The notes under the pieces: model-generated
What the model was told of the DNA's origin: nothing
Databases searched by the model: none
The model's input: the letters and a program-made list of their open reading frames with translations, nothing else
IMG/VR virus record: IMGVR_UViG_3300042696_000053
Span: 1 to 47,093 of that record
Reading direction: 5' to 3' (one strand)
From: a virus
DNA: 47,093 nt
Made by a program: the position numbers and the translations under genes
Shown here: positions 507 to 46,504 of the stretch, one piece after another
How the letters are laid out: the number at the start of each line of letters is the position of its first letter
Position numbering within the stretch: the stretch's first letter is position 1

Positions 507-1286
507 CTACTGGCCCTTCACGTACCCGCCCTTCTGGTCGCACCCGGCCACCGGGCAGGCCCAGAACGCCTTGTAGGCCTTGCCGGTGCGACGGCTGACA
601 CCAGCCGGGACGATCTTGCTGTCGTCGTGGATCGGGCACACCCACTCGGCGGCCCCGCCCTCGACGTAGCCGGTCGCTCCGGTCGCCTCCTGCACCCGCT
701 GCTGCATCGGCACCCGGGTGGGATCAGCGCTGGGCTGCGCCTGCGGCTGCTGGGTTTGGGCGAAGCGCGGCTCGGGCACCAGCCGGGCCTCGTCACGGGT
801 GTCGTACAGGTCACGGGCGATCCCCCACTGCACGGCGGCCCGCTTGAAGGCATCGCTGTGAGCACCCTTCTCGGGCTCGATGGTGGACGGCGTGCCCACG
901 TCCCACTTCCAGACCCATTCAGCCGGTTCGCTGCCGGGGATGCGGATGCCCAGCCCGCACTGGACGGCGCCCGAGGGCAGCACGTTGAAGATCGACTGCC
1001 AGTTGATGGGACCCACGGCTGAATCGAGCCGATCCTGCACGAAGCGGGCGGTCACGTAGTCGAGGGTGACGGCGTTGCCCTGTGCGTCGGTGACCGGCTG
1101 CCCGCCCTTGCCGAACATCTGGCGCTGGTGGACCTCCTCGCGCGGCGTGTCGGCCTGCAGCAGTTCGACCCACGGCTGACGCTGTGGATCAGGCGGTGCG
1201 GCCTGTGGTGCCTCCTGTGTCTCCTCGTCGGGCGGCTCAATCGGGGTGTCGATCCCGCCGAGAGCGGGGCTAGTTGCTGATGCCAT
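507..1286 (-). CDS. Rad52/22-type single-strand annealing protein
   Basis: A 259-residue protein. The segment SDAFKRAAVQWGIARDLY (about residues 144-161) is the signature of phage Rad52/Rad22-type annealing proteins, which coat single-stranded DNA and pair complementary strands in recombination. Upstream parts of the fold are also visible (LDYVTARFVQDRLDSAVG, then the WxWDVG strand). A Pro/Gln-rich linker leads to a C-terminal zinc motif (CPIH then CPVAGC). The start at 1286 is preferred over the upstream ATG at 1376 because AAGGAG lies six bases before it and the upstream extension overlaps the preceding gene. It overlaps the nuclease gene by 17 bases, giving the classic exonuclease/annealase pair. 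Confidence 0.85.
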   Translation of the reverse strand: MASATSPALGGIDTPIEPPDEETQEAPQAAPPDPQRQPWVELLQADTPREEVHQRQMFGKGGQPVTDAQGNAVTLDYVTARFVQDRLDSAVGPINWQSIFNVLPSGAVQCGLGIRIPGSEPAEWVWKWDVGTPSTIEPEKGAHSDAFKRAAVQWGIARDLYDTRDEARLVPEPRFAQTQQPQAQPSADPTRVPMQQRVQEATGATGYVEGGAAEWVCPIHDDSKIVPAGVSRRTGKAYKAFWACPVAGCDQKGGYVKGQ

Positions 1287-2145
1287 GGGTGTCTCCTTCC
1301 TCGACCATCTGGAGGCTCTGGACGAGGGCGGGCACCAACGTGCCACCTCGGGTGCGCCTGATGACCAGTGGTTCAATCTCGTTGCGCATGGAGTGCAGGA
1401 ACTTGGCGAAGGTCAGGGACCCAAGGAAGCCCTGAAAGATCACCGGGTTGGCCTCGACCTCGATCCACTCCCAGTCGGTCTCCGACAGGTGCAGGACGGC
1501 GAGCCCATCGGCCCGCCGCAGCAGGTCGGTAGCAGGCTGGTCGATCACGTCGTTCTCGCCCACGAACTCGCCCATGCCGTAGGCGATCAACTGGATGGCG
1601 TGGTCGATGTAGACCCCCTTGCTGGTCTTGTAATCCACCACGTAGATCAGGCCCGAGGGCAACTGCATCAGGGCGTCCCCGGTCCCGGCGTAGCCGTAGG
1701 TCAGGTTCCATATCTGACGCTCCGACCACAGAATCTGGGGCCGCATGGTCTGCATGAAGTCGATGAACTGGACGACGTAGCCGAAGATGTCGGGGTCCAC
1801 CGCCTCGGGCGCTAGGCCCAGCGCGATGGCGTCGTGCGCCCGGCTGCCCCGGTCGCCAGCCAGATCGCGCTCCTCGGTGGCCGCCGCCCGCAGGTGCTTG
1901 CGCACCTCCCTGATGATGTTGGCCTCACGATTGCGCTCACGCGGGCGCTTCGGGCGCTTCAGCATCTGGTCCACCAGCGCGTGATCGGTGATGGCCCGGT
2001 CGATCACCTGCGACAGCGCCCAGTTGTGGAGGGTGAACGGCATCCCGATCAGCCTGCGCACGCTGGTCACCGACGGGTACTCCTCGCCCTGCCAGTCGTA
2101 GAAACGCAGGCCGGTGTCGGGATCGGTGCGGGCGTTGGTCGTCAC
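1270..2145 (-). CDS. PD-(D/E)XK nuclease, RecB/Cas4-type exonuclease
   Basis: A 291-residue protein of the RecB/Cas4 exonuclease type. Visible active-site elements in order are a helix with RGSRAHDA (H104), E142, GTGDAL (D157), VVDYKTSKG (D171 and K173) and the QLIAYG helix (Q185, Y189). Such enzymes resect DNA ends and in phages work with an annealing protein, and here the Rad52-type gene follows directly. The start overlaps the upstream gene's stop by four bases (ATGA), so the two are translationally coupled. The role in phage recombination or end processing is inferred from family and context. Confidence 0.87.
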   Translation of the reverse strand: MTTNARTDPDTGLRFYDWQGEEYPSVTSVRRLIGMPFTLHNWALSQVIDRAITDHALVDQMLKRPKRPRERNREANIIREVRKHLRAAATEERDLAGDRGSRAHDAIALGLAPEAVDPDIFGYVVQFIDFMQTMRPQILWSERQIWNLTYGYAGTGDALMQLPSGLIYVVDYKTSKGVYIDHAIQLIAYGMGEFVGENDVIDQPATDLLRRADGLAVLHLSETDWEWIEVEANPVIFQGFLGSLTFAKFLHSMRNEIEPLVIRRTRGGTLVPALVQSLQMVEEGDTHGISN

Positions 2146-8091: not shown

Positions 8092-8562
8092 CTACCGCTG
8101 CCAGCGCTCCGGGTTCTGGTAGCAGCCATCGCACACCCGGTTGAGATTGCCGGTGCGCTGGTCGCAGTGCAGGCACTGGCGCATCAGATCAGCGGGCTCG
8201 TCTGACTCCACTACCCACGCCTCGCGGCAGTGGCACAGGGCGCACCCACCATAGGGCTCACGCTTGCCCGAAGGCTCGGCGTGTGCATCCAGTGAGTGCC
8301 CGCACGAACAACGGTGCGGGCTCCCGCCCCGGACGATCTGCCAGTCCTCGATCAGCACGTAGACCGGGACCGACCCGGGTATCTGGGCCGCCATGGCGAT
8401 GCCCTCGGCAACGAGCAGCATCTGCGCTCGCTCGCCACCGAACACGATGTGCCGACCGGAGGGCAGCGTGCCCTCGCCCAGCAGCACGGTGTGAGGACCC
8501 GGCTCGTCGGGCAGGGCCACGCGCTCCATGCGCACCATCAGTGGGTCCATCGGTGTGGTCAT
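8092..8562 (-). CDS. Zinc-site-rich hypothetical protein
   Basis: A 156-residue protein. The N-terminal half is beta-rich (HTVLLGEGTLPSGRHIVFGG, IPGSVPVYVLIEDWQIV). The C-terminal half has repeated metal-binding patterns: CSCGHSLDAH, CALCHC and CLHCDQRT with CDGCYQ, nine cysteines in all. It is likely to hold two zinc ions and to bind nucleic acid or protein. It is directly followed by a terminator. Family unknown. Confidence 0.65.
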   Translation of the reverse strand: MTTPMDPLMVRMERVALPDEPGPHTVLLGEGTLPSGRHIVFGGERAQMLLVAEGIAMAAQIPGSVPVYVLIEDWQIVRGGSPHRCSCGHSLDAHAEPSGKREPYGGCALCHCREAWVVESDEPADLMRQCLHCDQRTGNLNRVCDGCYQNPERWQR

Positions 8563-8890: not shown

Positions 8891-10996
8891 CTACGCCAGC
8901 CGCCCCATGATCTTGGCCATCTTCCGACCCAGCAGGTCCCAGTCTCCTTCCCATGGGACCACGTACTCGGGCAGGTAGCACTCGTTCTGCGTCTCGGTCA
9001 GGCCGCCGTCGATGGCGACACTGATCACGCCGATCCCGTCCTTGCGCACGGACTCGACCGCGCCTCGCACCCACGACTCATCCTCGTTCGGTGCCCCATC
9101 GCTGAGGACCACCATTACGCTGCGCTCGCGTGGGCTGCGCTCGCGGCGAATCACCTCGCCCAGCGCCCGGATGGCGCTGGCGTCGTTGTTCCCACCGCTG
9201 GCGTCGATGGCCCGCACCCGGTTGATCTTGTCGCCTCGGCGCCCGTCATACACGTCCCACAGCGCGGTGCCGTTCCACGAGTAGTTGTGCGCCCAGATAT
9301 GGACCCGGATGCCGGGCACCCGCTGCAGGGCCTCCGCGATGTTGGCCGTCAGGGTGCCCGCTACCTCGACCAGCCGGGGTGCATCCCACTCGTTCCACGC
9401 GCGGGCAGCCATGCTGCCCGAGGCATCCACCAGCAGGTGCAGGTCCAGCCGGTCGGGGCTCAGTGCCTCGCGCCGGGTGAACACGGTGTCAAAGCCCGCC
9501 GCCACCCGGTAGACCCGGTGCCCGCTGACGCGGCCCGAGCGGGCCACGGTGCGGTTGTCGTGCGACGTGCGACGGCTGGTGAACGCTGCCCGCAGGGCGG
9601 CCTGCACCTCGGGGCTGGTGTTGGGCTTGCTGCCTTTCTTCTCGACCGGGATCACCTTCACCCGCACCTTGTGGGCCTTAGCACCCTCGCGGTGGGTGAC
9701 CGTAATCTCCTGCTTGTTGACCGCCGTGGCCCGGGTGTTCAGGTTGCGGGCCACGTTCAGGTCCCGATTCCGATCATCGTTGGTCAGCGCGTCATGGGCC
9801 TCCAGCGGCAGTGGGCTGGTCAGGGCGTCGTTGCGATCCTGCGCGGCCCCCTCCATGACCGGGGTGCCATCGGCACCGTCGCCCCGGTTGGGGCCGTAGG
9901 TGCTGCTGGTCACCTCAGCATCGGCAGCCAACGCCTCGGCGTCCGCGTCCCGGGCCTCGTCGGCGTGGGTGTAGCGGCCATCGCCATCGGCGTTGGGCTC
10001 GGCGCTGGACTCGGTGCTGGACTGGCCAGCGGGCTCACCGTCGGGCTCACCCTGCTGCTGGGCCTCACCATCGGCCTCACCATCGGCCTCATCGGCCTCG
10101 GCGGCCCCGGCACTGCCGGGCTCCTGCTCGCCGGGCTCATCGCTCGGTGCGCTGGGGTCCGGCTGGTCCAGATCGCTGTCGTCCTCGGACTGCCCCGACT
10201 GCCCCGGCTGCGACTGCTCGCCGGGCTCGGGCCGTTCCTCGGGCAGGGGTTCGATGTGGTCCAGCGCCTCGCGGATGAGGGCCACGTGGTCCTTGGGCTT
10301 GTCGGCCACCTTCATGCGGTCGCCCCATGCCCGCCACCATGCCCGCTCAGCCAGCATCAGCGGGTCGCTGCCCCACTGGGTCCAGCGCAGGTAGCGGATG
10401 GCTGCCAGCCCGAGGTTCAGCGCCTCCTGACGCGTCTGGGGGGCTCGGGTGACCATGCCTCGGGGGTAGCGCTGGGTGATCCACCACGCCCCGAGGCTGA
10501 ACAGCCCAGTGTAGGTGGGCCAGCGCTGGCTGGTCTGGTACTCCAGCCGCTCGTCGTCGCCGATGTTGCTGAGCGTCTGGGCCCGCTCGTAGACCACCCG
10601 GGACTCGGCCCGGAAGGCCTTGGCCACGGCCCGCCCCATCGGTGCGCTGATCCGGGTATGCCCGGCCTCATGCACGCCCATGGCGGTGGTCACGCCCAGC
10701 CGCTCCAGCAGGGTCAGCCGCTGGTCCACCAGCGCGGCGGTGGTGATGCCGACCCGCTTGGCCTGCAGGTCGGTGCCCGCCGTGCTGACCTGACCGGACA
10801 GCATGACCGCGTAATGGTCGCCCCCGGCCATGGCGTTGACAATGCTGGTCACCCCGGCCAGCACGGTCTCCACCGACTGGGCATCGGTGCCGCCGGAGTA
10901 GCCCCAGCCGCTCCACAGGTCGGCCACAGCGGGCGGGACGCCCGGGTAGTCGGTGGTGCGGTCGATGGTGCGCTCGGTGTCAGCCTGTGCGGTCAT
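8891..10996 (-). CDS. CobT-like metallopeptidase-VWA protein
   Basis: A 701-residue protein. Near residue 109 stands HEAGH, a zinc-metallopeptidase HExxH motif, and at 144-152 NIGDDERLE matches the NxxEDxRxE element of CobT-type proteins that supplies the third ligand. Residues about 250-400 form a long acidic, Gln/Gly/Ser-rich linker, also typical of CobT. The C-terminal third is a von Willebrand A domain with a MIDAS motif DASGSM (D524, S526, S528) and a later SDGAPN. VWA partners of MoxR ATPases bind targets through this metal site, and the ATPase gene is immediately upstream (ATGA overlap). In bacteria CobS-CobT insert cobalt into corrin; no cobalamin genes are here, so a protein-remodelling or proteolytic role in host takeover is more likely. 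Confidence 0.85.
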   Translation of the reverse strand: MTAQADTERTIDRTTDYPGVPPAVADLWSGWGYSGGTDAQSVETVLAGVTSIVNAMAGGDHYAVMLSGQVSTAGTDLQAKRVGITTAALVDQRLTLLERLGVTTAMGVHEAGHTRISAPMGRAVAKAFRAESRVVYERAQTLSNIGDDERLEYQTSQRWPTYTGLFSLGAWWITQRYPRGMVTRAPQTRQEALNLGLAAIRYLRWTQWGSDPLMLAERAWWRAWGDRMKVADKPKDHVALIREALDHIEPLPEERPEPGEQSQPGQSGQSEDDSDLDQPDPSAPSDEPGEQEPGSAGAAEADEADGEADGEAQQQGEPDGEPAGQSSTESSAEPNADGDGRYTHADEARDADAEALAADAEVTSSTYGPNRGDGADGTPVMEGAAQDRNDALTSPLPLEAHDALTNDDRNRDLNVARNLNTRATAVNKQEITVTHREGAKAHKVRVKVIPVEKKGSKPNTSPEVQAALRAAFTSRRTSHDNRTVARSGRVSGHRVYRVAAGFDTVFTRREALSPDRLDLHLLVDASGSMAARAWNEWDAPRLVEVAGTLTANIAEALQRVPGIRVHIWAHNYSWNGTALWDVYDGRRGDKINRVRAIDASGGNNDASAIRALGEVIRRERSPRERSVMVVLSDGAPNEDESWVRGAVESVRKDGIGVISVAIDGGLTETQNECYLPEYVVPWEGDWDLLGRKMAKIMGRLA

Positions 10997-12621
10997 GCGG
11001 GCACCTCCCCGTCCTCAGCCGGAACGGTCACCGGGTTGAACGCCATGCACTGGGCCAGCGCGTTGTTGGGATAGTCCCGCACGCAGGTCCGGCAGTGGGT
11101 GCTGGCCGACACCTCGGTGCCGATGCCGTGCTGCTCGGCGCCGTGGCCGCAGTGGCACAGCCCGGTCCCGGTCATCACCTGCCCGGCCTTGGGCTCACGC
11201 CATGCGATCCCGGCCACGTGGGTCAGGACCAGCGCTCGCTCGCTGTTGCTGGCGCCCTCGGCGTTGAAGCCGTCCAGCACGGCGGCCTCGACCGCCAGCC
11301 GGGCGTACCGCTCGCCGTAGGTGGCGATCTGCCACGCGGCGCTCAGCAACTGGCGGGTGCTGACCGGGGGATGGGCACCGGACTCCGCGCTCTGGCGGGT
11401 CAGGGCGCCCAGCCGGGCGAGGTTGGCGGCTTGGTACTCGCTCAGCCCGGGCACGCGGTCCAGCAGCAGCGCCTTCTCGTCGGTCTCGGTCAGCGGGTCC
11501 ACCATGATCCACGACCCGATGCGGGTGCGGATCGCCTCGTCCAGCGGCTCGGTACCGAGGAACGCGGAGCCGATGTTGGCGGTGACCACGATCTGCACGG
11601 CGCGGTTCACCCGCTCCCGCTTGCCGGTCTGCGGGATCGTCACCGACCCCGACCCGTCCAGCAGCGGCAGCATGGCGTTCAGCGCTCGCAGGTTGGCGCG
11701 GTTCACCTCGTCCAGCAGCAGGGTCCGTGCTCCCGGCAGGGTGATCGCCAGCAGCAGGTCGGAGGGCACGAACTTGGTGCCCGACCCGTCCAGCGTGACG
11801 GTGCCGAACCAGTCACCCGGCTCGACCACGCCCGAGGCGTCGAACTTCACGACCTCCAGCCCCTCGTCCGCGCTCAGGGCGTGGACGGCGTGGGTCTTGC
11901 CTGCTCCCGAGGGGCCGACCATGGCGATGACCATGGGCTGGCCCGCTCGGTGGGCGGCACGGGCCATCTCCCACTTCTGGCGGGCGGTCTTGCTGAGCAC
12001 GATCTTCCCGGCGTAGGCGGCAGGCAGGGCCTGTAGCACCCCATTGGTCGCACTCGGTGCGGGCAATACCGGCGGTGCGACCTCCGGTGCGCCCAGTCCC
12101 GGCTGGGGGTGCTCAGCCCCCTCGGGGCTCGGGCCAGTCGGGGCCGGAGTCGGGGCCGGGCTCGGGGCCACCAGACTGCCGACCCGGCTGGGGTCCAGCG
12201 CCTGCCAGCCGGTGCTGGTGCGGGCCGCGCTGACCCCAGCGCCGTCGTAGAGCGGCAGCACCTGACGCGGTGCGGCTCGCAGCACGTGGGCCTTGGTTCG
12301 CCAGTCACGCTGCAGGCTGACGCCATCGGGGCTCATCAGCCGGTTGGCGCGGACCAGCAGGGCCTCGGGCAGGGTGACCGGGGCGCCGGGGGTGTGCGGC
12401 TGCTCGGTCGGGCTGGCCACGACGGTCCAGTGCGGGACCGGCTCGGTGGCGTACTGCACGTTCAGGCCCCAGCCATCGGCGCTGAGCCCGACGCTCAGCC
12501 AGTCAGGATTGGTGTGCAGCGTGGCATCGCTGATGGAGTCCACGGTGGTGACCACGCCGGTGCCTGACGCCCGCAGCCGGGTGATCAGGGTGTCGCGGTC
12601 GGGGTAGGTGAGTCGAGCCAT
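10993..12621 (-). CDS. MoxR/CobS-like AAA+ ATPase
   Basis: A 542-residue protein. Residues about 1-150 form an N-terminal domain unknown to me, followed by a Pro/Ala linker and the AAA+ core: Walker A GPSGAGKT (236-243), Walker B TLLLDEVNRA (D304, E305), sensor-1 N349 in VTANIGS, and an arginine finger in EAIRTRIGSW (R365 or R367). It is the dynein-related/MoxR class that acts as a hexameric motor. The C-terminus adds a zinc motif (CHCGH, then THCRTC). The next gene encodes the CobT-like VWA partner, overlapping by four bases, so the two form one machine. The start at 12621 has GGAGG nine bases upstream. Confidence 0.87.
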   Translation of the reverse strand: MARLTYPDRDTLITRLRASGTGVVTTVDSISDATLHTNPDWLSVGLSADGWGLNVQYATEPVPHWTVVASPTEQPHTPGAPVTLPEALLVRANRLMSPDGVSLQRDWRTKAHVLRAAPRQVLPLYDGAGVSAARTSTGWQALDPSRVGSLVAPSPAPTPAPTGPSPEGAEHPQPGLGAPEVAPPVLPAPSATNGVLQALPAAYAGKIVLSKTARQKWEMARAAHRAGQPMVIAMVGPSGAGKTHAVHALSADEGLEVVKFDASGVVEPGDWFGTVTLDGSGTKFVPSDLLLAITLPGARTLLLDEVNRANLRALNAMLPLLDGSGSVTIPQTGKRERVNRAVQIVVTANIGSAFLGTEPLDEAIRTRIGSWIMVDPLTETDEKALLLDRVPGLSEYQAANLARLGALTRQSAESGAHPPVSTRQLLSAAWQIATYGERYARLAVEAAVLDGFNAEGASNSERALVLTHVAGIAWREPKAGQVMTGTGLCHCGHGAEQHGIGTEVSASTHCRTCVRDYPNNALAQCMAFNPVTVPAEDGEVPA

Positions 12622-12634
12622 CTGGGTGTGCCTC

Positions 12635-12772
12635 CTAGCGCTCGGTGGCCGGATGGGTGATCCGGTACAGCCGGTCGACGGCGAGGGCCATGCCCACCGC
12701 GTAGCCGGTGATGAGGACGCCTGCCGCAGCGAGGATCGCCATGGCGAGGGCCGGGTGAATGGGGAGCAGCAT
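12635..12772 (-). CDS. 45-residue membrane peptide, first gene of the early operon
   Basis: The short product MLLPIHPALAMAILAAAGVL continues to 45 residues with one long hydrophobic segment (about residues 6-33) and a basic C-terminal tail. GGAGG lies nine bases before the ATG at 12772. The in-frame extension to 13027 lacks a ribosome site and is read from the leader, so it is not adopted. It is transcribed ahead of the AAA+ gene. Function is unknown. Confidence 0.6.
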   Translation of the reverse strand: MLLPIHPALAMAILAAAGVLITGYAVGMALAVDRLYRITHPATER

Positions 12773-13323
12773 CTGCTCGTGCCTCCAACGCTCCGGGGTC
12801 GGTGCCGTCTGGTCGGTCACCCCGTAGGGGTGATGGTACAGCAGGATGCAGTAGGCCTGCAAGGTCTGGGCGCACACCGGTGGCGGTGATCGTGGGACCG
12901 ACGGTGGTGACGGTGGGATGACGATGGGGGTGACGGTGGGTGTGAGGAGGGCCGAAGGCCCGACGAACGTAGGCCGGTAGGCTTGGTGGTAGGTGTGGCT
13001 AAGGGTAGGTAGGCGGTAGTAGTCCACACCGTCCTTGGCTTGGTATCCCCCGGGTTGGGGGTGGTTCTAGGTTGACGGTAAGTACCCGGTCCCCTACTGG
13101 CTTTTCTCTAAAGCCCTACGCGCTGTGAATACAGCCCCTGTAGATTACTTACCCAATCCACCGAACCCCTAGTACCAAATGCAGTAAGTGAGCAGTCTAA
13201 AGTAAGTAAATAGGGGTCCTGTAATAGGTAGGTTCCCTCTGAACAACTGGTTCTGAGAAGATAAGAGTTCTCTTACTAAATACCTACCTAGTTACCAGTG
13301 GCTACCCCTATAATCCCCAACCC
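12773..13323. promoter_or_regulatory. Divergent control region, possible origin (551 bp)
   Basis: No convincing gene lies here. The left part (12773-12965) is the leader of the leftward operon and has two inverted repeats, TCACCCC-GTA-GGGGTGA (12818-12834) and GGGCC-GAA-GGCCC (12949-12961), plus two copies of TGACGGTGGG (12908-12917 and 12931-12940). The middle (12969-13013) holds five GTAGG cores, four of them as GGTAGG. The right part is clearly AT-richer than the rest of the genome and holds GTAAGTR four times: 13078-13084, 13146-13152 (inverted), 13184-13190 and 13202-13208. It also has an inverted repeat TAAGAG-TT-CTCTTA (13262-13275) and a possible plus-strand -35 TTGACG at 13072 with TACTGG 17 bases on. 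Divergent operons leave this point. A control region is a strong inference; origin function is a guess. Confidence 0.65.
13309..13314 (+). promoter_or_regulatory. TATAAT -10 element driving a leaderless gene
   Basis: A perfect TATAAT lies nine bases before the ATG at 13324. A transcript would start within two or three bases of the ATG, and no Shine-Dalgarno sequence is present, so the mRNA is probably leaderless. No good -35 is seen 16-18 bases upstream, where an activator site could substitute. The inverted repeat at 13262-13275 lies at about -60 to -46. Confidence 0.6.
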
Positions 13324-13491
13324 ATGGGCTTCATCGACTGGCACTGCAACCCACTCAGCGTCCCCTGTCCCCGTTGCGGTGCTGCCGTCGGTGAGGAATG
13401 CCGCCGTGTCCGTCCTTCACCCCGGCGAGGAACCCACCGCAAGGCTCGTCACCGGGTGCGTTGGCAGCAAGCCACTCGCGCTGGGCGTTGA
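13324..13491 (+). CDS. Zinc-knuckle protein, copy 1 (first rightward gene)
   Basis: A 55-residue protein. CPRCGAAVGEEC followed by a basic stretch and RHRVRWQQA gives a C-x2-C-x6-C-type zinc knuckle with downstream histidines, a pattern of tiny phage DNA-binding proteins. It resembles the next gene product (both have CPxCxAxVGxxC and HRxRWQxA), so the pair is probably a duplication. The start follows a perfect -10 box with no Shine-Dalgarno site. Being first behind the control region, it may be a regulator of late genes. Confidence 0.68.
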   Translation: MGFIDWHCNPLSVPCPRCGAAVGEECRRVRPSPRRGTHRKARHRVRWQQATRAGR

Positions 13492-13527
13492 CCCGACGCA
13501 CCACCCGGCGCTGCTAGCATCCAGCCC

Positions 13528-13731
13528 GTGAGTGACACCCCGCTCAGCGCCAAGACCGTCATCACCACCGTCGCCTGCCCCGACTGTCTGGCCCCGGTCG
13601 GAACCCAGTGCCTGCTGGGCGCCCGCTTCAAGACCAGTCCGCACCGCAACCGTTGGCAGGACGCCCGGCGTGCGCTAGGCTTACCGCCGTCACGTGGCGA
13701 ACGCGCCGCCCGGGCACCACAGCGGGGCTGA
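13528..13731 (+). CDS. Zinc-knuckle protein, copy 2
   Basis: A 67-residue protein from a GTG at 13528. CPDCLAPVGTQC and SPHRNRWQDA match the preceding gene product. The N-terminus is Ser/Thr-rich and the C-terminus basic. TAGCAT (13515-13520) lies seven bases before the GTG with no Shine-Dalgarno site, again suggesting a leaderless start; TTGACC at 13488 is 21 bases further up, too far for a standard -35. It is a probable nucleic-acid-binding regulator. Confidence 0.65.
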   Translation: MSDTPLSAKTVITTVACPDCLAPVGTQCLLGARFKTSPHRNRWQDARRALGLPPSRGERAARAPQRG

Positions 13732-23219: not shown

Positions 23220-25716
23220 GACCGGCAGGTTCGGGCGCCTGCCGCGTACCGCTCCCAACTTGGCCAGCGTGATCGTGGCCATGATGCGGGAGATTGCCTC
23301 GCAGGAGGACTCCAACATCGTTGACGCGTGGCAGAACGGCGGCGAATACAAGGGTCGTCCGGTCACCGACGAGATGCTGCTGCGCCATTTCCGCCAGCGG
23401 CGCGATGGCGTGTCGAAGCGCGATCCGCTGTGGGACAAGTGGAACAACACGCTGCTGAACTACGAGTTCAGCATCGCTGAGTCGAAGATGTCCCTGAAGT
23501 ACGCCCAGCACAAGGTGGGCGAGGGCCAGATGGCCGACTTCTACCGCAAGTGGGCGGGCAAGGTGCCGCACAACTCGGAGGTCTACCGCAGCCTGATGCG
23601 CTCGGCGGCCCAGTTCGCGGATGCCGCCACTTCGCGGGCGGCGGGCTCTCGGGCAGCGGCCAGCCAGTCGGGTTACAACAGTGCGGTCGAGTCATCGTGG
23701 AAGAAGTACGAGCGTGACTACGACAACGCCTCCAGCCTGCTGCTGACCGCCGCTTACCGGGCGGGCATCCTGCAGCAGACCGACACCACCACCCCGGATG
23801 ACCTGATGGACCTGCGGGGCGGGGATGAGGCCGACCATGCTCGCTTCCTCGACCTGTTCGACCAGATTCAGAGCGACCCGTACTACGCCGACATCAAGGC
23901 CGCGCTGGACAAGAGCGGCTTGGCCGGGCTGACCTACGGCCAGTTCGTGTCGCTGGGGGCTGACAAGACCCACGGCATTGACGCCCGCATCCGTATCGCT
24001 CGCCAGTTCGGGGACGAGTCGGGTGCCAAGGCGGCAGTCGAGGAAAAGACGAAGTTCTTGCTGCAGCGGGCCAAGGTGGCCGACATTGACGAGTTCGCGG
24101 CCTACGAGAACTACCGCCGCACCGTGCAGAACGCACTGGCCAACGACGTGATGAACCCGTGGGAGGTCAACGACCTGCTGACGGGCTATGCCGACGCGTT
24201 GCGCAACTTCCGTGACTCGGCGGTGGCCGAGGAGGACAAGGGATTCTTCAATAACGAACTGAGCGCGTTCAGCGGGATGGGCACGATTGGGCCCACCGCC
24301 TTTGAGGGCACCGAGGGCGGCATCCGCACCAACACCAGCGCCGATTCGCTGGGGCTGTCAAGCATCCTGCTGCTGGCCCAGAACACGATCAAGGCGGTCG
24401 AGGACGGGCAGGCGGTACTGACCGTCAGCGTGGACAAGAACGGGCAGGAAGCCTACGGCACTATGGCTCGCAACGATCCCAGTCTGAGCGACCCACACAA
24501 CGGCACGATGGTGTTCCTGCCGGGCGGCAGCCATGGCACCATCCCGGCGTATGCGGTCTATCAGCCGGTGCTGCTGCAGCCTGCTGAACTCGATCCGCGC
24601 ACCGGTCGCCCAGCGGGCAACCCGGGGGTGGCGGGCGACCAGCAGGTCGGCGTGGTCATGCGGATCAACGGCCATGACTACTACGGCATTTACGTCGGGC
24701 AGGGCGGGCAGGACATCCGCTGGTTCGCAGACAGCCCGTTCAAGGCTGGGGCCACGGTGGAGCGCGGAACCGACGGGATGGTGGTCACCGCGCCGGTGTC
24801 GCTCCTGTCGGGCACCACTGATCCCACCACCGGCGAGATGTTGGGCTTTGATCCGTTGTCGGTCATCGACCCCCGGGCGCTGAATGACGAGTTGACCTAC
24901 ACCAACCGTTTCACCTCGCCGGTCGAGGCGGTCTACACCTTCGACTCCGAGGCGCGGAGTGCGCTGCTGCACACGTCGGATGCCCAGTTGCAGGCCGCTG
25001 CTGCGTTGGCCCCAGACCCGGTGACCGCGTTCGCCCAGTTGCGGGACTTGCGCAACACCATCGTGGAGCGCACCAACGCTCGCGCCTTCTCGCTGATCGA
25101 CTCGGGCTTCATGGGTGCGGCCAACCCGCGCCAGTTGATCGCACAGGGCTACCAGTTGACGCCCGAGCAGCAGGCTGCCATCGAGACGTTCGCCCCGACC
25201 GGGGAGCCACCCGCTGTCACCTACGCGCAGATCGAGCACCGGAGGGCGGTATTGACCGCCCATCTGGCCTCACGCGATGTGCCGGTCCCGGCTGCGGTGC
25301 AGCACTACCTGAACTACGCCAACAACTCGCTGGTGCGCGATCTGGGTGGTCCGCTGCATGGGCCCGAGTCGTTCGGCACCACCCAAGCAGAGGTGGATCG
25401 CTTCACGGGAGGCCAGCCGGTCACCTACACCCCGGTCAAGCAGGCTGGGCCGGTGCCTTCGCCGGTTGAGCCCAGCCTGCGGGTGCCTGCTGTGCCGCAG
25501 GCCCCGGCGCTGTCGGGCACGGCCAACGTCAATCTGCCAGCCGAACTGCCCGCACCACCGCACCCACGGATCACCCCACAGGTCCAGCCGCAGCCGCCGG
25601 AGGCCCAGCCGCGCCGCATCCGTACTCCGCGCCTGCCGAAGAACTCGCCGCTGGTCAACCCGATCCTCACGCCGTCGTTCGTGAGCAAGGTGACCCAGAA
25701 CCTGCCGAGGTACTAG
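23212..25716 (+). CDS. Large virion protein, unknown role
   Basis: An 834-residue protein between portal and polyvalent protein. The N-terminal 350 residues are mostly helical and charged; the middle (about 390-530) is beta-rich (VLTVSVDKNGQEAYGTMARN, VGVVMRINGHDYYGIYVG, WFADSPFKAGATVERG); the C-terminus is a Pro-rich linker. Size, position and domain mix suggest an internal virion or ejection protein, or a head-morphogenesis factor. No catalytic motif is visible. It starts inside the portal stop and ends just before the 3033-residue gene. Confidence 0.65.
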   Translation: MARTGRFGRLPRTAPNLASVIVAMMREIASQEDSNIVDAWQNGGEYKGRPVTDEMLLRHFRQRRDGVSKRDPLWDKWNNTLLNYEFSIAESKMSLKYAQHKVGEGQMADFYRKWAGKVPHNSEVYRSLMRSAAQFADAATSRAAGSRAAASQSGYNSAVESSWKKYERDYDNASSLLLTAAYRAGILQQTDTTTPDDLMDLRGGDEADHARFLDLFDQIQSDPYYADIKAALDKSGLAGLTYGQFVSLGADKTHGIDARIRIARQFGDESGAKAAVEEKTKFLLQRAKVADIDEFAAYENYRRTVQNALANDVMNPWEVNDLLTGYADALRNFRDSAVAEEDKGFFNNELSAFSGMGTIGPTAFEGTEGGIRTNTSADSLGLSSILLLAQNTIKAVEDGQAVLTVSVDKNGQEAYGTMARNDPSLSDPHNGTMVFLPGGSHGTIPAYAVYQPVLLQPAELDPRTGRPAGNPGVAGDQQVGVVMRINGHDYYGIYVGQGGQDIRWFADSPFKAGATVERGTDGMVVTAPVSLLSGTTDPTTGEMLGFDPLSVIDPRALNDELTYTNRFTSPVEAVYTFDSEARSALLHTSDAQLQAAAALAPDPVTAFAQLRDLRNTIVERTNARAFSLIDSGFMGAANPRQLIAQGYQLTPEQQAAIETFAPTGEPPAVTYAQIEHRRAVLTAHLASRDVPVPAAVQHYLNYANNSLVRDLGGPLHGPESFGTTQAEVDRFTGGQPVTYTPVKQAGPVPSPVEPSLRVPAVPQAPALSGTANVNLPAELPAPPHPRITPQVQPQPPEAQPRRIRTPRLPKNSPLVNPILTPSFVSKVTQNLPRY

Positions 25717-25719
25717 GCC

Positions 25720-28700
25720 GTGACCTTCGATTTCAGCGGAGCGATCCGGTCGCTGCAGAGCCGCCCCAGCCCGAACTTCGACCCCTACGATCCGTTTTCC
25801 ACGACCTCGGGGCTGAGCACCTATTCGGCGCTGCCCAACATCGTGTCGCCCATCAGCCTGCGGACCATGCAGACCCTGCCGATGACCCGCGCCACTGCGC
25901 AGCGGGCCGATCCCATCGTGCCGGGCCCACTGGGTATCTGGCAGTTGCAGAGTCGCTCGCGGCCCAACGAGCAGATCGGCAAGTTCGGCGTCAACCTGCT
26001 GGGCGAGCAGGGCTATACCCCGGGTGCGCCGACCCCGTATGCCACTCAGCCGACCGATGCCGCAGCCCAGTTGCGGGCCATGGCCGATCCCAACAACCCG
26101 CAGAACCGGGGCTTCATCGAGGGCCTGCTGGGCGGCATCGGCGGCATCTTCGGGCAGGGCGGCAAGGATGTGGGCTCGTTCGTGGGCTCGATCTTCGACT
26201 TCCCGCTGGAGTTGTCGGGCAACCTGCTGGGCCTGCCCGGCTCGTTCGCCACCGCGCAACTGACCACCGGTGGCAAGGCATGGGACCCCGATATTCAGGC
26301 CATCTACGATCAGGCGGCCAAGCAGAACCCGCTCAATGGGTTGCTGCTGTGGGGGCAGGCGGCCAAGGCCCAGTGGGTGCGTGACACCGAAGCGGGGCGC
26401 CACACCGGGCTGTACGCCGACTTTGGCCCCGCGACTGCCCTCACCGACCAGTTGGGGTTCATCCTGCAGGGCCTGTCGGTGCCGATGCGCTGGACCCAGC
26501 GGGCCTTCAGCGGCGGTGCCACCGACCAGTCCATGGCCGATGTGGAGCGGGCGCTGGCCTCCGGGGCTGAGACCTACACCGATGCGCAGGGCGTGGTTCA
26601 TTCGACTGCCGATTGGATCAAGAACAGCGCGTGGGCCCGGGTCCAGCAGCGGCTGGCGCGGGGTGACTTCGGCCCGGTTGGTTCGCAGGAGGCCCGCGAC
26701 AAGGCCATCGACGCGTTGATCGTGGAGGGCAGTCTGCTGCGTGACGCGGGCGACCCCGACCAGCAGGGCTTTCTGACCGGACAGGGACTGGCCGACATCG
26801 CCTTCAGCCTCGTGACCGACCCGACCCTGATCGCCAGCAGCATCGTCGGAGCGGCGGGCAAACTCGGCAAGGTTGCCACTATGGCCGCCAACGCCAAGTT
26901 CTGGCAGACGGTGCCCCGCGAACTGCTGCCCAAGGTCATGGCCGAGGTCGAGCGGGTCGGGATGAAGGTCGGCGCCTTCGACAACCCGGAGCGGGTGTGG
27001 AGCACGCTGGGCCGGGCGACCCGGGGCGAGACCGAGCAGGCGTTGGCCGAAGGCGCTGGGCTGGCGACTCGTACAGGCCGGGTGGCAGACGCTCGCAACT
27101 TTGAGTCGCAGGTGCTGCGCGAGGTAATGCAGAACCCGGAGTTCGCCTCGTTCCGCAACGAGGGTGGTCGGGCGCTGGAATACATCGACAACTGGCGCAA
27201 CACGTGGGAGCCTGCCCTGCGCCCGATCGCCGGGCTGGTGCGCACCATCAACGATCCGTTCCGCCTGTTTGGGCATGGTCGGGCTGAGCGCTGGATGAAC
27301 GATGTCTACTCCTCGCAGGCCACCGAGGGCCTCATCCGGGGGCAGGGTGGATTGGACGCCCACGCCAAGGTGCAGCGCCTGCTGGGCGAGGTGGGTGAGA
27401 CCTTCCGACAGCGCTACGACCGGGGCCTCGGCACCTATGCCGCCTTTGAGGCGCGGGTCTATCACCGGGCCGGGCTGGTCAGCGACCTGCGCCGCCGCAT
27501 CCTCAGCGGGGATGGCACGGTGGGCGACCTGATGGCGTATTTGCCCGATGAGGCCATTCGGTCGCGGATGAACGGCTCGACCGCCGGGGACATCGCCAGT
27601 GGGATGGAGAAGCAGGCCCTGCGTTACCGCCCGTTGTACCTCGCCACCGAGCGGGGCGGCGGTGAGGCTGCGCTGGCGCGGGCCCGGGTGGAGGGCGCCC
27701 AGCGGTTGCAGATGATGGGCATGGCTGAGGCTGCCGCCACCAGTACGGCGGCCAAGATGGGACGCGATGAACTGTCGATGCTGGATGGTGCCTACTTCGG
27801 CTATGCCATGGACCAGTTCGTCACGGCTCGCAAGGCCGGACTGGGCCTGTCGAAGAAGGCGGCCAAGGGCATCAACTACGAGACGCTGACGATGATCGGG
27901 CCTCGGACGCTGACCCGGGGTGAAGCCGAAATCGTGCTCGACGCCGTGAAGCGCGGAGCGACCGAGGAAGTGCGGGCAGCGGTGCGCCGATACGACCTGC
28001 TGTTCGAGAACCTGAGCGAGAACCTGAGTGATGCCGATCTGCTGAAGGCCGTCCGTGAACTGGTCAGCGACCAGATGGATGCCGGGGCGCTGCCGACCAT
28101 CATCGAGGACCTGCGCAACCTCACGCCCGAGATGCGGCACTGGGCCGAGACGAACGCCGAGGCGGGCTACCGGGTGGGCTTCCGGCCCGAGGACCCGAGG
28201 AAGTTGTGGCACGTCACCGTCAACCCCGATGGCAACGTGGTCGGTATCAACCCGTGGCTGGACGTGGCTGCCGAGGCTAGCGACGTGCCGACCTACAGCC
28301 GGGGCCAACTGCTGCGCGACATGCTGTTCCATGACATCCGGGGCGAGCGGATCATGGCCGACGCTCGGGTGCGGCTGGCGCAATACACCTCCGAGCAGTG
28401 GGGCCTGCCCCGGGCCGATTCCGATGCGCTGTTCGCCCGCCTGTTGCGGTCGGCACAGGAGGCGGGCATCACCCCGCGTGGTATGGCGCCTGAGCAGGTC
28501 TACAAGATCGTGCGGACCCACGGCATCCCCAAGGATGTGATGGAGGGGATCGGAGTGCGCGAAGCGGTCGAGGCCCTGCTCTATGCCTTTGAGGGCAACT
28601 GGAAGCGGGTGGGCCTGAGCCAGAAGTTCACCGGCTATGCCAAGACCACGCTGGGCGGCCAGTCGAACTGGCTGGGGCAGGTGGCCGAGAAGATTTACCC

Positions 28701-31700
28701 AGCGGTGCGCTTCACCCTGAACCCGTTGTTTCAGGCGCAGGAACTGGTCGAGCCCTTCATTCTCAACATCGTGCGCGGCATCAAGCCGGGCTTCCGGGCC
28801 AGCGAGATGGACGAGCGCACCCTCAACCTGATCGAGACCCTGATCCGCGACAGCAAGTACGCCTACGACGATCAGATCGAGCGTGACGTGGTGCTGCTGT
28901 GGGGTGCTGACAGTGCCCGCAAGGCGTTCGGCCCCAACTCGCGGCTGGGCCAGATGGTGCGCAAGATGACCGTCGGTGGCCTCATCAACGTGAAGGAGGT
29001 CAAGCGCGTCAACTACGCCCGCGTGATCCGCCGCCAGTTGGGCAAGGAGTTCGCGGACAACATGGACCGGGTGCAGCCCGGCTTCATGGCCAAGATGGCG
29101 GCGCAGTACCAGACCTCTGACCCGGGCGAGATTGCCGTGCGCTGGCTCACCGACAAGTCCCGGCTGGAGACCCCGCTCCATGCGCTGAAGCCGGAGTCGC
29201 TGGGGGCTCGCACGCCCATTGACCTCGATCAGGCCGCACAACTGTTCGATGGTGTGCCCGATGGTGCGGCCTTGCGGGCAGCCGTGCGCTCAGGCGACAT
29301 GACGGTCGATGACTTCCGAGATGCTCTCGTGAATGCTGGAGCCGACCCGGCCTATGCCGACCGGGCATTTATGACGGCGGCCTCTCCGGTGTCGGCATCC
29401 GAGTTCTGGGACGAATACCGCAGCGTGTTCCGGGGTGGCAACCAGCGAGCGACCAACGCTGACCGGGCCGTGTTCAAGGCCTTCGCCGAGCGCCACGGCA
29501 TGAGCGAGGAGGAGTTCATCGCCAAGGTCATGGCCGATACGCCGCAGAGCGCGGATCACATGGCGGTGGCGGCGATGGCGGCTGCCGACAAGCGGGGTTA
29601 CCAGTTGATGGCCGAGGCTATGGACGCCGCTATCGGCGAGCCCAGCGCCGAGGCTGACCGGATGCTCGACTGGTTCCGCCGGGTCACCAACTTCAGCGCC
29701 GACCGGGAGCACCTCATCATCGTCACGCCCGAGGGAGACGTGGTGGGTCAGGCCCAGCAGGCTGCGCCATGGCGGCTGTGGACCGAGCCGGGCATCGACT
29801 ACGTGGCTACGCGCAGTGGCGTGGGCGTCGTGGAGCGTAAGGCGGGGATGGTCACCGACGCCAACATTGGCGATGCCGAACTGGCCGACGTGATCGACAA
29901 GATGCCCGGCAACCATGTGGGCCATAACCACCCGGATCGCAACGCGTTGAGCCCGGCTGACATCGGCACGGCGATGATTCACCGGACCCGCAGCCTGTCG
30001 GCCATGTCGCCCTCGGTCACCTACACCATCGAACCCAACGTGGTCGATGGCTGGATCACACCCGAGTTCTTGGATGAGTTCGGCGAGGCGACCGACTGGG
30101 CCAACATGGCCCCGGACGATCCGGGCTGGTTGGAGGTCCGGCTGCAACTCAACAATCTGTGGGACGAATACACCCGCGAGTTCGTGGATCGGGTGAAGAA
30201 CCTGCCCTACTACCGCGACCGGGACCCCTCGCGCTGGGATTCTTTCATTGAGGAACTGGGTGTGCAGCACGCCAACCAGCGCATCGCGGATCGCTATGGC
30301 TGGCGTTTCACGGTGACGCCGCACTACTTCATGCCGACCGAGCGGGAGCACCGCTATGCGGCCTTCTATGAGTCGTTCCTGAATCCGCCCTCGGGGCTGG
30401 GTAAGCGCTTTCCGGGCGCCTATCGCAGCCTTGTTCCTGAGCGGGTGGCGATGGAGGGACACGGCACCGAGGTCGCCTACGAGGTGGTGTCCGACAACGA
30501 CCAGTTGTTCAACCTGATCGGCAGCCTGCCCGAGGAGGCCCAGCGCCAGATCACCGACACGTGGGACGATTGGCTGCGCTCCGAGGTGGCGCCTGAACTG
30601 GGGCTGGCCATCGGGCGGGTGGTCCGGGGCGTGGGTGGCTGGACCGATGAGCATGGCGTGTTCAGTCAGGCCATCAACGAAGTGCAGGACGTGTTCGGCA
30701 ACATCGAGCAGGCCACTGACTACGCGAGGGCCATCGGCTACCTGCGGCAGCAGTCGGCAGTGGTCGTCTCGCGCCACCTCCCGGGCGTGGTGGTGGCTGA
30801 TACCGCTCGCGGGCAGAAGTGGGCGGTTCACGTCAATCTGGGGCAGGTGGACGATCTGGTGGCCTCGGAGCGTCTGCGCGAGGTCAGCGAGGCAGCGCCG
30901 GGGCTGGGCGCGTGGGGGTCGAGCATCACCCGCGATGTCAACGGCAACGCGGTCCTGCGCTTCGTGGACTTCACTGGTGAGGGGATGGTGGACGAGGCGG
31001 CTTTTGCCTCGCGCATGGATGAGGTGCTGCCTGAGCAGGCGCTGGCCCACATCGACTACGAGGAGGTCAGCCCGGCTGTCGTAGACTATCGCTACGTCGA
31101 GAACGACTGGGAGAAGAACCCCCATGGGGAAGCGTATCTACAGGCGCTCGGTCAGCGGCGCCCAGACCTTGTTCGACGGCTCGCAGGTAAGTCTGGGGCC
31201 GGGGGGTCGCTCGCCAAGCGCTCCAACGATGTCCTCGCCCACGCCCTCGACTCCTACGCCCCCACCGAGTGGCAGCAGCACCTCGCCGACCTCCGGGCCC
31301 GAGGTCTCAACCCCAAGTTCCGCGCCGTCGGAGACTTCACCCCTGCCCCCGAAGGGGTAGACCTCATCCTGCCCGGTGGCCGGGCACGGTTCTTCGACAG
31401 TCCCAACGAGCCGCTGTCGCTGTGGGAGCAGCAGAACGTCAAGGCCCAGCGTATCAACGCGGCAGGGTGGTACGCGGCTGATCCCGAGGGCTACCTGCGC
31501 TTCATGCACGCGGTGTGGCACTCCAAGGAGAAGGATGTCACGCTCCCTCAGAACCTCTACAACGCTTTCGCGTGGGCCGCGCTGACCGCCAACGCACCGC
31601 TGGAGGTGACCGAGGGCGCCTTCGGACTGGTGCGAGCCGGGGGCCGGGTGGCACAGGAAGCCGGGCTCGTCGGGTCGTATGGGCTGCGGGCCCGCGAGGC

Positions 31701-34700
31701 ATGGGCCCAGCGCATCCTGAACAAGTTGCCCGAGGAGTTCCGCACCAACCCCGAGGCGGCTGGGATCGCGCTGCAACTGGATCAGGGGATGCGTTTCAGC
31801 AGTTTCGATTTGGCCAAGGCCGATTGGCTGACCACCCGCGAGTTCGCCACCGCTGATCGGGTGGCCACCCGCATCAACGAGCGCCTGCGGGCCATGACGC
31901 CTGAGCAGCGAGCCCGGTGGGTGCCGCGCATCCAGCAGCGATTGGATGGCGCTGTCCGACGCAAGGGCCGGGCGGGAGCGATGGGTGTGGGGCGCGGCCT
32001 CAACCGTGGCAACCTGCGGCTGCAGGTCCATGAGTTCCCGGCCCACACGCTGACGACCTATGGGATCGACGGCACGCCCAAGGACCTGTCCTCGTTCGTG
32101 ACCGTGGTGCGCCCCAAGGTGCGCCTGAAGGGCACGGCCACCAGCCAGCAGTGGGGCCGGATTCTGCTCTGGCTGCGGGACGGGATGTGGACCACCGACT
32201 ACGTTCCGCTGCGCCGTTTTATGACGCCACAGGTCAACGAGAGCCTCAGCCAGTACGCCCTGCGGATGAGCAGCCTGCTGCCGGGGATCGACGTAAAGAC
32301 GGCCATGATGGCGGGCCAGACGCTGGCTCCATCAGCCATGGCGCACGGGGCGCTGGACACCCACATGCTGCGCAACATCATGGAGGTGGCCCGCCGCCGG
32401 GGCGATCTGGAGGACCTGCTCGGACGCCTGACGCCGGGCTATGCCGACCACCTGCGCACTGAACTGGCCCGGGCCGACACCTCGCTCAGCACAGCCTTCA
32501 AGAGCCCCCGTGTCACGCGCATCCGGTTGGTGCCGACGGCCATGGAGAAGGAGGCATGGGGCCCGGCCAAGTTGCAGGCCATGCGCCGTAATCTGTCGAA
32601 GATCGCAGACCCCGAGATGCGGGCGCTGTACGACGATGAGGCGGTGCTGTTGCGCATCGCCAAGGCCAGCCCCGATGGCCACGTCAACGTCTGGGGTGGC
32701 GATTACGCGGTGCTGGATGACTACTTCAACACCGTGGTGCGGGCTGATGAGGCGGCAGCGCTGGAGGCTGCCGGGCAGCAGGGCGCGGCCCGGCTGGTCG
32801 AGCGCCTGTCGGGCGGCCAGTGGCAGTGGCAGAAGTGGGACCGTATCCGCTCCGAGGCGGCGGGCATCCCGCTCGATCCGCATGTCTCGATCACGAAGGG
32901 CGCGGATGCCATGCTGCCGCCGCAGGCCGGAGTGCTGGACCGGGCCATCGAGGTGATCCGGGGCGGCCAGCCCTTCGACCCGAGGGTGGGCTGGCTGTGG
33001 CAGCAGAGCGATGGTCGGGTGCTGGGCGCCAACCAGATTCTGCGCAGCGGCAAGCGCATCCTGCTGGCTACCCAGTTCGCGGATGGGCGCACCGGGCTGC
33101 ACGAACTGGCCCACGCCTTTGAGCCGTTCCTCGACCCGTCGATGCGGGAGCAGATTCTGGAGCAGTTCCGGGCTGCCACTGGCTCACGCCGCACCACGTG
33201 GGGCCGGGTGGTGTCCGAGTGGTGGGCCGACAGCCTGTTGACCTACGCCCGCTCGCGGGGCCGCAAGGGCAATCAGGCCCTGCGCTCCTCGTTTGAGTAC
33301 CTGCGTCACTCGCTGGATGGAGTGGAGCGCAACGTCGCGGCAGCCAAGGCGCTGGAGGCCAGCGAGAAGGTGAAGGCGGCTGCGATCCGCAAGGCCCAGA
33401 AGGTCATCGACAGGCAGGGACCGGTGCTGAAGGACGCACAGGCGGCTACCCGTGCGGCCAACCGGGTGTACGAACGGGCTGCCCGCGATCTGCGCCGGGC
33501 ACGGGCTCGGGCCTCACTGGGCACGTTGGAGGAGCGGGCCAACGCGATGGGCGATGTCGTAACGCATGTCGATCAGAACCTGCGTGACGCCAAGGGCGAA
33601 CTGCGTGCGGCCATCGGTGAGGCCAAAGCCGCTGAGGTGCGGGCCCGTGAGGCACTGGGTACTAGTACCGCTGGCGGTGCCCGTACTAGTGCCAACGCCA
33701 AGGCCCGCGCCGTAGAGCGCCAGCGCCAGCGGGTGAAGGACCTGAACGCTGAACTGCAGAAGGCTCGCGCTGCCCAGAGCAAGGCCAACCGGGCAGCGGG
33801 TGCTGCACGGCGCCGGACCCCCGTAGCCGAACTGGAGGCCACCCGTGACCGTGCCCGTGATGCCCTACAGGCTGCCCTCCGTCAGCAGCGTGAGGCGCAG
33901 AAGGTGCTGGATGATGCGAAGAAGGCGCTGGGGTCGGCACACAACATGAAGCCCGGTCGGGTGAAGGTCGGCCCGATCCAGATGAGCCCTGAAATGCGGG
34001 CCATCTGGGACGACCTGACCACCCCGCCCGAGCAGCCCTCGCTGATTGCTGGGACCGGCCAGCCCTACGACCTGCAGCAGGAGGCGGTCTATCAAGCGGC
34101 ACGGCTGGCACTGAGCCGGGCCGAGGAGAACGCCTTTACCCTGCACTTCTACAAGCGAGGGCGGTCGATGCTGGAGCGCTCGATCAACCACCCGTACTTC
34201 GGCCTGTACCCGGCCTCCTACATGTGGGGCAAGATTCTGCCCGAGATGATCCGGTTCCTTGTGAAGGAGCCGTTTGGGGTGCAGGCCCCATTGGGTGGGC
34301 TGCTGCTGGCCAACAACATCTATCGCAGCGTGATGCTGCAGCAGCAGTTCGATCCCGAGTTCCGCAAGCACATGGCCGAGAACACCGACCTGTGGCGCTT
34401 CGTGGCGATTATGACGCCCAGCCTGCCGTGGGAGGTGCCGGTCAACGCCCCGCTTTGGATGCGGCGCCTGTCGGAGGGTGCCCTGAACTACGACGACAAG
34501 TTGGCGTCTTACCGGGCTCGGGCGGCTGCCGGGCGGCTGACGCCCAGCGAGAAGCCGCCGGAGTTGGCCAATCTGGAGGATGTCGGCAACATCGGGGCTG
34601 AGATGCTGAACTACGCGTTTGGGCCTGCCAACGCCATCACCACGGTCACTGGTGCGATCAGTGGTTCGGTCAGTGCGGCCAGTAGTGCGGTCGGCTACGT

Positions 34701-46136: not shown

Positions 46137-46504
46137 GCGTCGGCCCCACGCTCGTTCAGAATGATGTCGCGGGCGGTCAGGAAGTCCTCGTCCGTGCCCC
46201 TGTAGGTGCCGGGTCTGTACGCATGGATCACCGCGATCAGCGGATCATCGTCCTCCAGCGTGAAGGCCACCACCCCCGGCTTCCGGTGGTCGTCGCAGTG
46301 CTCGACGTGCTGCTCGATCAGCGAGCCGAACAGGGCGAACTCATCCTCAATGCTGGGCTTGGGTGCCCCAGCCAGCAAGGTGTAGCCCGTGCGAGAGGTG
46401 CGGCACTCAGCGATCCACGACTGCCTCCCGCTCTCCTCGACCATCTTCCACAGCACCAGATCGTGCCGGGCCCCGAACTGTGGGTTCTGCTTGTCCTCAC
46501 TCAT
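46133..46504 (-). CDS. Hypothetical protein in the replication operon
   Basis: A 123-residue protein from ATG at 46504, set by an ATGA overlap with the SLOG gene; the frame further up to 46858 is shadow. It is mixed alpha/beta (HDLVLWKMVEESGRQSWIAE, GVVAFTLEDDDPLIAVIHAY) with a CDDH pair but no full metal site. It leads directly into the primase start. No family recognised. Confidence 0.6.
   Translation of the reverse strand: MSEDKQNPQFGARHDLVLWKMVEESGRQSWIAECRTSRTGYTLLAGAPKPSIEDEFALFGSLIEQHVEHCDDHRKPGVVAFTLEDDDPLIAVIHAYRPGTYRGTDEDFLTARDIILNERGADA

Follow-up and report, generated by a model that had tools for sequence, protein, structure and literature searches.

An AAA+ ATPase and a metallopeptidase-like VWA partner in the company of viral recombination and replication genes: a candidate protein-remodelling machine

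We examined the whole of virus record IMGVR_UViG_3300042696_000053 (47,093 bp, 66.6% GC; hereafter the window), and in it a minus-strand gene pair coding for a CobS/MoxR-type AAA+ ATPase and a 'CobT-like' partner that combines a metallopeptidase-like domain with a VWA domain. With moderate confidence, we propose that this pair uses ATP to remodel, and possibly to cleave, phage recombination or replication complexes on DNA. The proposal builds on what we observed directly, namely the anatomy, conservation, pairing and operon linkage of the two genes and the absence of CobN. Coordinates are collected in Table 1.

Anatomy and conservation of the gene pair

The two open reading frames (ORFs) share 4 nt (10993-10996), and the third-position GC bias on the minus strand was strong for both (0.92 and 0.89). 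A previous description of this DNA made from its letters alone (the sequence-only reading) had pointed to this four-base overlap, to a Walker A motif at residues 236-243 of the AAA+ protein and to HEAGH, NIGDDERLE and a DxSxS metal ion-dependent adhesion site (MIDAS) in the partner; all were confirmed, the Walker A motif reading GPSGAGKT.

The AAA+ protein matched PF07728 (AAA_5; 41.6 bits, cut-off 22) and PHROG 249, the phage 'CobS' family (1.5e-21), while a profile of 61 AAA relatives matched CobS, NorQ and CbbQ structures at 1e-44 to 1e-48. Walker A and B, sensor-1 Asn349, Arg367 and Arg423 were invariant or nearly so among 60-61 dereplicated AAA homologues. The marks of a MoxR/CobS-type AAA_5 protein are all present: Walker A and B, a sensor 1 Asn, an Arg finger, a sensor 2 Arg, a score above the cut-off and, through the overlap, an adjacent VWA cochaperone gene. 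By analogy, the protein would assemble into a hexameric ring.

In the partner, an acidic linker joins an N-terminal HEAGH domain to a C-terminal VWA domain, which scored 39.8 bits with PF00092 (cut-off 23.8) and has a MIDAS reading DASGS (aa 524-528). The DxSxS and downstream Asp typical of a VWA/MIDAS cochaperone are present, and Asp524, Ser526, Ser528 and Asp633 were invariant in all 60 aligned dereplicated partners. As catalytic and MIDAS residues are conserved across 60-61 dereplicated homologues, the features of the two proteins are not due to chance.

In the same 60 partners, a conserved N-x2-E-D-x-R motif, to which NIGDDERLE corresponds, sits about 30-40 residues downstream of HExxH. 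HExxH is lacking in 13 of them; none of these keeps N-x2-E-D-x-R and all keep the MIDAS. Such coupled loss would be expected if the two motifs formed one active site; replacement of the whole domain would look alike. AlphaFold2 modelling of partner residues 1-258 with 41 sequences gave a predicted local distance difference test score (pLDDT) of 90 and a predicted TM score (pTM) of 0.86, and showed three strands (63-84), the HEAGH helix (96-128) and then the NIGDDERLE helix (133-158). The model places HExxH on an active-site helix that follows a small beta-sheet, as in gluzincins and minigluzincins. The top three Foldseek matches in the PDB were the minigluzincins abylysin, selecase and jannalysin, at a probability of 0.94-0.96, yet with E-values of 0.11-0.64. 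We read the modelled HEAGH domain as a zincin of minigluzincin type; together with the coupled motif loss, the model makes it a plausible, predicted zinc peptidase, and the sequence-only suggestion that the pair may have real protease activity is plausible to that extent.

In two relatives the partner gene is naturally split into an ORF of the HExxH type and a VWA ORF: L065 (8345-9733 / 9746-10573) and L030 (9803-10504 / 10485-11654), where the motif reads HEKLH. The HExxH and VWA parts are thus separable modules.

Further putative metal-binding motifs were seen around the AAA+ protein. Its zinc-ribbon-like C-terminal tail is missing in the closest relative, L047, and the ORF at 8092-8562 (-) shares with this tail a similar CxCGH(x3-4)H...CxxC motif. 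SWIM-like fingers occurred in 8/128 AAA partners, against an overall background of about 0.03 such motifs per 1000 residues; a CxCx(n)CxH finger of this kind is fused to the AAA N-terminus in L037, L038, L042, L046, L084, L087 and L104, the last giving an E-value of 0.0065, below cut-off, with the Pfam SWIM model. The fingers and the tail hint at docking to nucleic acid or protein.

Table 1. Positions of the gene pair, its domains and motifs, and linked genes in the window
Feature	Position	Strand	Basis
CobS/MoxR-type AAA+ ATPase, 542 aa	10993-12621	-	PF07728, PHROG 249, profile matches
Walker A GPSGAGKT, aa 236-243	11893-11916	-	sequence and alignment
Walker B LLLDE, aa 301-305	11707-11721	-	D304 nearly invariant, E305 invariant in relatives
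Zinc-ribbon-like C-terminal tail CxCGH...CxxC of AAA, aa 489-513	11083-11157	-	sequence and alignment
Metallopeptidase-like / VWA partner, 701 aa ('CobT-like')	8891-10996	-	ORF, PF00092, homologue alignment
Minigluzincin-like N-terminal domain (predicted), aa 1-258	10223-10996	-	AlphaFold2, Foldseek
HEAGH zinc-binding motif, aa 109-113	10658-10672	-	HExxH intact in 47/60 relatives
NIGDDERLE glutamate-helix motif, aa 144-152, putative third metal ligand	10541-10567	-	conserved N-x2-E-D-x-R
VWA domain, aa 518-664, MIDAS D524-x-S-x-S528 + D633	9005-9445	-	PF00092; DSSD in 60/60
Rad52/Erf-like single-strand annealing protein	507-1376	-	PHROG 1097 1e-26; PF04098 Rad52_Rad22 8e-7
Exonuclease (PHROG 298), same gene block	1270-2145	-	synteny in L047, L065, G049
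RepA/DnaB-like helicase	43472-44800	-	PHROG matches; PF13481 3e-25; contiguous with exo-Erf in L047

Gene company in phages and conjugative elements

Scanning viral contigs with a single VWA or AAA protein gave no matches, and alignment-based scans gave 150 loci. Both genes lay on the same strand within 6 kb in 128 of 163 loci (105 of these within 1 kb, 98 with AAA first). The link between the two genes assumed in the sequence-only reading is thus a conserved one, and the sequences point to an old module, widespread in viruses and conjugative elements.

In the relative L047, AAA-VWA, exonuclease-Erf and the DnaB-like helicase form one contiguous block. The same set is found in G049 and, across the record ends, in the window; L065 carries AAA, a split VWA and the exonuclease. 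In G060 and G068, which have related terminase, portal and capsid genes, the pair, exonuclease and Erf are all missing. In a larger set of terminase relatives, AAA occurred only where the exonuclease occurs; this co-occurrence is suggestive only, given the kinship of the records and the truncation of two of them in the region that matters. G051 and G053 stop at the site expected for the pair, which makes their missing AAA uninformative. The G049 exonuclease match (about 23846-24655) contains one in-frame TAG.

Without preselection, the recurrent viral neighbours were PolA, UvsX/RecA, DnaB, a Cas4/RecE-type exonuclease, a Holliday-junction resolvase, helicase, ligase and RusA. For 133 proteins from the neighbourhoods of viral loci, the best 25 of 113 families were mainly of DNA metabolism; this set included three known hub proteins, so that some family counts are one too high. 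When ten families were scored within 10 kb in 64 viral lineages (loci dereplicated at 50% identity), 38 had a replication or recombination neighbour of any kind. The PDDEXK_1 model was found in 14/50 viral records. The YqaJ model PF09588 was found in 2/50 only; hence a link to lambda exonuclease is not general for phages.

The conjugative set comprised 85 loci of conjugative elements and similar, all retrieved by VWA similarity; one retrieval pattern was YLAHE[AS]AH, which biases the HExxH share of this set. Near the VWA gene we found DUF3150 in 83 loci, AAA in 79, a lambda-type exonuclease in 77 and Bet/RecT in 73, with the module genes on the VWA strand in all loci except L004. Two gene orders were seen: bet-exo-AAA-mid-DUF3150-VWA, and AAA-bet-exo-DUF3150-VWA with bet-exo between AAA and VWA. 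At 50% identity the loci fell into 18 lineages, 15 of which had bet and exo. DUF3150, 'mid' and toprim models had no match in the window or the viral loci. The SXT genes s067-s070 would, from gene order, correspond to the AAA-mid-DUF3150-VWA module; deletions of bet, exo, s067, s068 and s070 in SXT each caused a mild transfer defect, 10-fold or less (PMC2791158). The survey of homologue neighbourhoods that the sequence-only reading had called for thus shows recombination and replication genes recurring both in phages and in conjugative elements.

That reading also had the pair leading the early operon. It is indeed the first large gene pair of its minus-strand block, in the same position as in L047 and G049; a possible very small ORF precedes it. 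A sigma-70-type promoter was looked for in 12600-13600 with no match, the gap between the divergent gene blocks (13040-13310) included. This gap is AT-richer, with recurring TAAGTA-like words; repeats in 13030-13320 amounted to one weak inverted repeat. Next to it lie two small tandem plus-strand ORFs (13298-13531 and 13528-13731), each with a zinc-ribbon-like CPxC...C...H pattern.

The early gene block appears to cross the record ends (1 / 47093), and the genome is therefore probably circularly permuted and near complete. Megablast of positions 1-25000 against phages gave no match, nor did a prophage search by terminase in genome contigs. Near the helicase, a short protein (46501-46887, -) matches the N-terminal part of PHROG 289 (GTP-binding domain) and is kept in L047 and G053. 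On the plus strand, 25720-34821 codes for a protein of 3033 aa, probably a large virion protein, which matched no PHROG and is kept in L047, L065, G049 and other relatives.

Proposed mechanism and alternative roles

A MoxR/CobS-type AAA+ ring would work with a substrate-presenting cochaperone in which a minigluzincin-like domain and a MIDAS VWA domain are combined. If the pair behaves like the MoxR-VWA couples of solved structure, its VWA domain would dock on the ring and grip the target, ATP hydrolysis would remodel or extract it, and the HEAGH domain may then cleave it. In NorQD, the VWA domain plugs the pore of a MoxR hexamer, the MIDAS-bearing VWA and the ATPase are both required, and this binding mode has been proposed for the whole family (PMC9976466). 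We infer both the peptidase activity and the target of the pair. Because of the operon company, recombination and replication proteins on DNA would be the likeliest targets: the annealing protein, the exonuclease, the helicase, or host proteins blocking DNA.

A borrowed metabolic role has to be weighed against this proposal. In the proposal of Liu et al. 2021 (PMC8651126), viral CobST works with the CobN of the host, by which the pair would raise cobalamin. Kinship speaks for it: CobT_C was found in 34/60 partners and PD_CobS in 28/61 AAAs, and CobT was the best structural homologue of the partner family by sequence (5e-41), with an alignment starting just past the HExxH position; single viral CobT-like proteins gave no phmmer matches in the PDB. 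For the window pair itself, the partner scored 15.7 bits with CobT_C, under the cut-off of 21, the AAA had no match to PD_CobS at E<=0.1, and the curated CobS/CobT family cut-offs were not reached. The sequence-only reading had seen no cobalamin genes; CobN is indeed absent from the record, the other cob genes not having been searched one by one. CobN was likewise absent from 57 further module records (50 records, 5 plasmids and 2 Thermus phages), many of which are fragments, and from 30/50 host genomes with the conjugative-element module. CobST as a general function fails for hosts without CobN. Moreover, the two CobT proteins examined lack HExxH: L342, a clear CobT (231 bits to PF06213), reads RYHDPQLHEKF...FDAIENARVDAIG, L343 is similar in this respect, and both genomes also hold module VWAs with HEAAH. 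Where the N-domain of CobT is without HExxH, the window partner has HEAGH. To judge from sequence, CobT is related to the module partner family, but those defining features of CobST that were tested do not apply here. Given the absence of CobN from the window, the 57 other records and the 30 host genomes, a cobaltochelatase role is unlikely; we regard CobN borrowing by the pair as highly improbable, and the cobalamin label is probably wrong for it.

The sequence-only reading had favoured a host- or virion-directed machine, a choice not borne out by the place of homologous modules among recombination and replication genes and, in virion-less conjugative elements, in one operon with bet and exo. 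As a virion-assembly chaperone and processing peptidase, the pair would fold and clip structural proteins in morphogenesis. For group 2.2 jumbo phages, whose MoxR-vWA-metallopeptidase architecture is the same, such a role has been proposed (PMC7824862), the model being ATV p618/p892 in tail development (PMC4124505). Yet conjugative elements, in which homologous modules are common, build no virions, and virion assembly is therefore unlikely as a general role; in addition, the window pair lies in the minus-strand block, apart from the plus-strand structural genes, and packaging among the best 25 of the 113 neighbour families was represented by terminase only, twice. For the window pair we consider this role quite unlikely. 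Host takeover or counter-defence, in which the machine would extract or cleave host proteins early in infection, is plausible for an early-region protein-remodelling pair; the zincin ArdC acts in anti-restriction and was the fifth structural match (6sna, not significant), and removing host proteins from DNA would also count as host-directed. We nevertheless hold it to be unlikely, as the module associates with recombination genes and not with known anti-defence genes, and a PADLOC search of defence families gave no convincing match (none for the partner, weak P-loop matches only for the AAA).

Several points weigh against our own proposal of a machine for recombination and replication complexes. 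The neighbourhood evidence is guilt by association, with counts from module-carrying loci alone, and phage recombination and replication genes commonly cluster in early regions. Recombination-class neighbours were seen in only 14 of the 64 viral lineages, and in the window exonuclease and Erf lie about 7 kb from the pair. As for the peptidase, the Foldseek matches of the N-domain fall short of significance (best E-value 0.11), the window carries Asp147-Asp148 at the position of the presumed third ligand, most relatives having Glu there, and proteolysis is not essential everywhere, since some lineages lack HExxH, as does the gp48/gp49 module of Thermus phage P74-26. No module member is known to us to have been characterised biochemically.

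Relation to known systems

The architecture is already described, in jumbo phages and as 'viral cobST'; a recombination link was not found stated in the literature searched and is a useful new hypothesis. Many viral genomes are annotated with cobS/cobT, read as metabolic helpers. For this module, the evidence favours the remodelling of proteins at viral and plasmid DNA. Were this the case, 'auxiliary metabolic genes' of a whole class would be wrongly assigned, the lambda-Red-type recombination of SXT/R391 and IncC elements would involve an ATP-driven partner so far unstudied, and bacteria would offer a parallel to protease-coupled unfoldases at chromatin.

Among mobile elements, group 2.2 jumbo phages (Iyer et al. 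2021, PMC7824862) have the same MoxR AAA+ gene beside a vWA gene with an N-terminal metallopeptidase; the window phage differs in being a 47-kb, high-GC phage whose neighbourhood points to recombination and replication and not to virion assembly. Viral cobST (Liu et al. 2021, PMC8651126) and the cobS/'peptidase' of T4-like cyanophages are homologous pairs with AAA first and a VWA partner; the window lacks CobN and has HExxH; the 'peptidase' annotation, called mistaken for viral cobST, may therefore be right. The SXT/R391-type integrative and conjugative elements, IncC and Marinobacter plasmids likewise have AAA and HExxH-VWA in an operon-like block with exonuclease and annealing protein, the latter Bet/RecT there and Rad52/Erf-like in the window; DUF3150, present there, was not detected in the window.

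Outside mobile elements, the CobS-CobT cobaltochelatase (PDB 9uka) shares the AAA+ clade, the VWA domain and a homologous helix with E-x2-R-x-[ED], but true CobT (L342) has RYHDPQLHEKF in place of HExxH and works with CobN. NorQ-NorD, CbbQ-CbbO and RavA-ViaA likewise couple a MoxR ring to a MIDAS VWA cochaperone and differ in their metabolic or respiratory clients. We know of no peptidase domain in these three systems. A similar arrangement, an analogy and not homology, is that of Cdc48-Wss1 and p97-SPRTN, with an AAA+ motor and a minigluzincin-like protease at DNA. Wss1, minigluzincin-like and modelled on abylysin (4JIU), clears chromatin-bound proteins with Cdc48 (PMC4559962); abylysin is also the top Foldseek match of the HEAGH domain. 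Tentatively, and with more doubt than belief, we suggest that the module is the mobile-element counterpart of these systems, in phages and conjugative elements, mislabelled as a vitamin-B12 enzyme: its ring would strip proteins off recombination or replication DNA and feed them to a tethered minigluzincin protease. Cdc48-Wss1 and p97-SPRTN are eukaryotic, belong to another AAA+ clade and use SUMO/ubiquitin adaptors.

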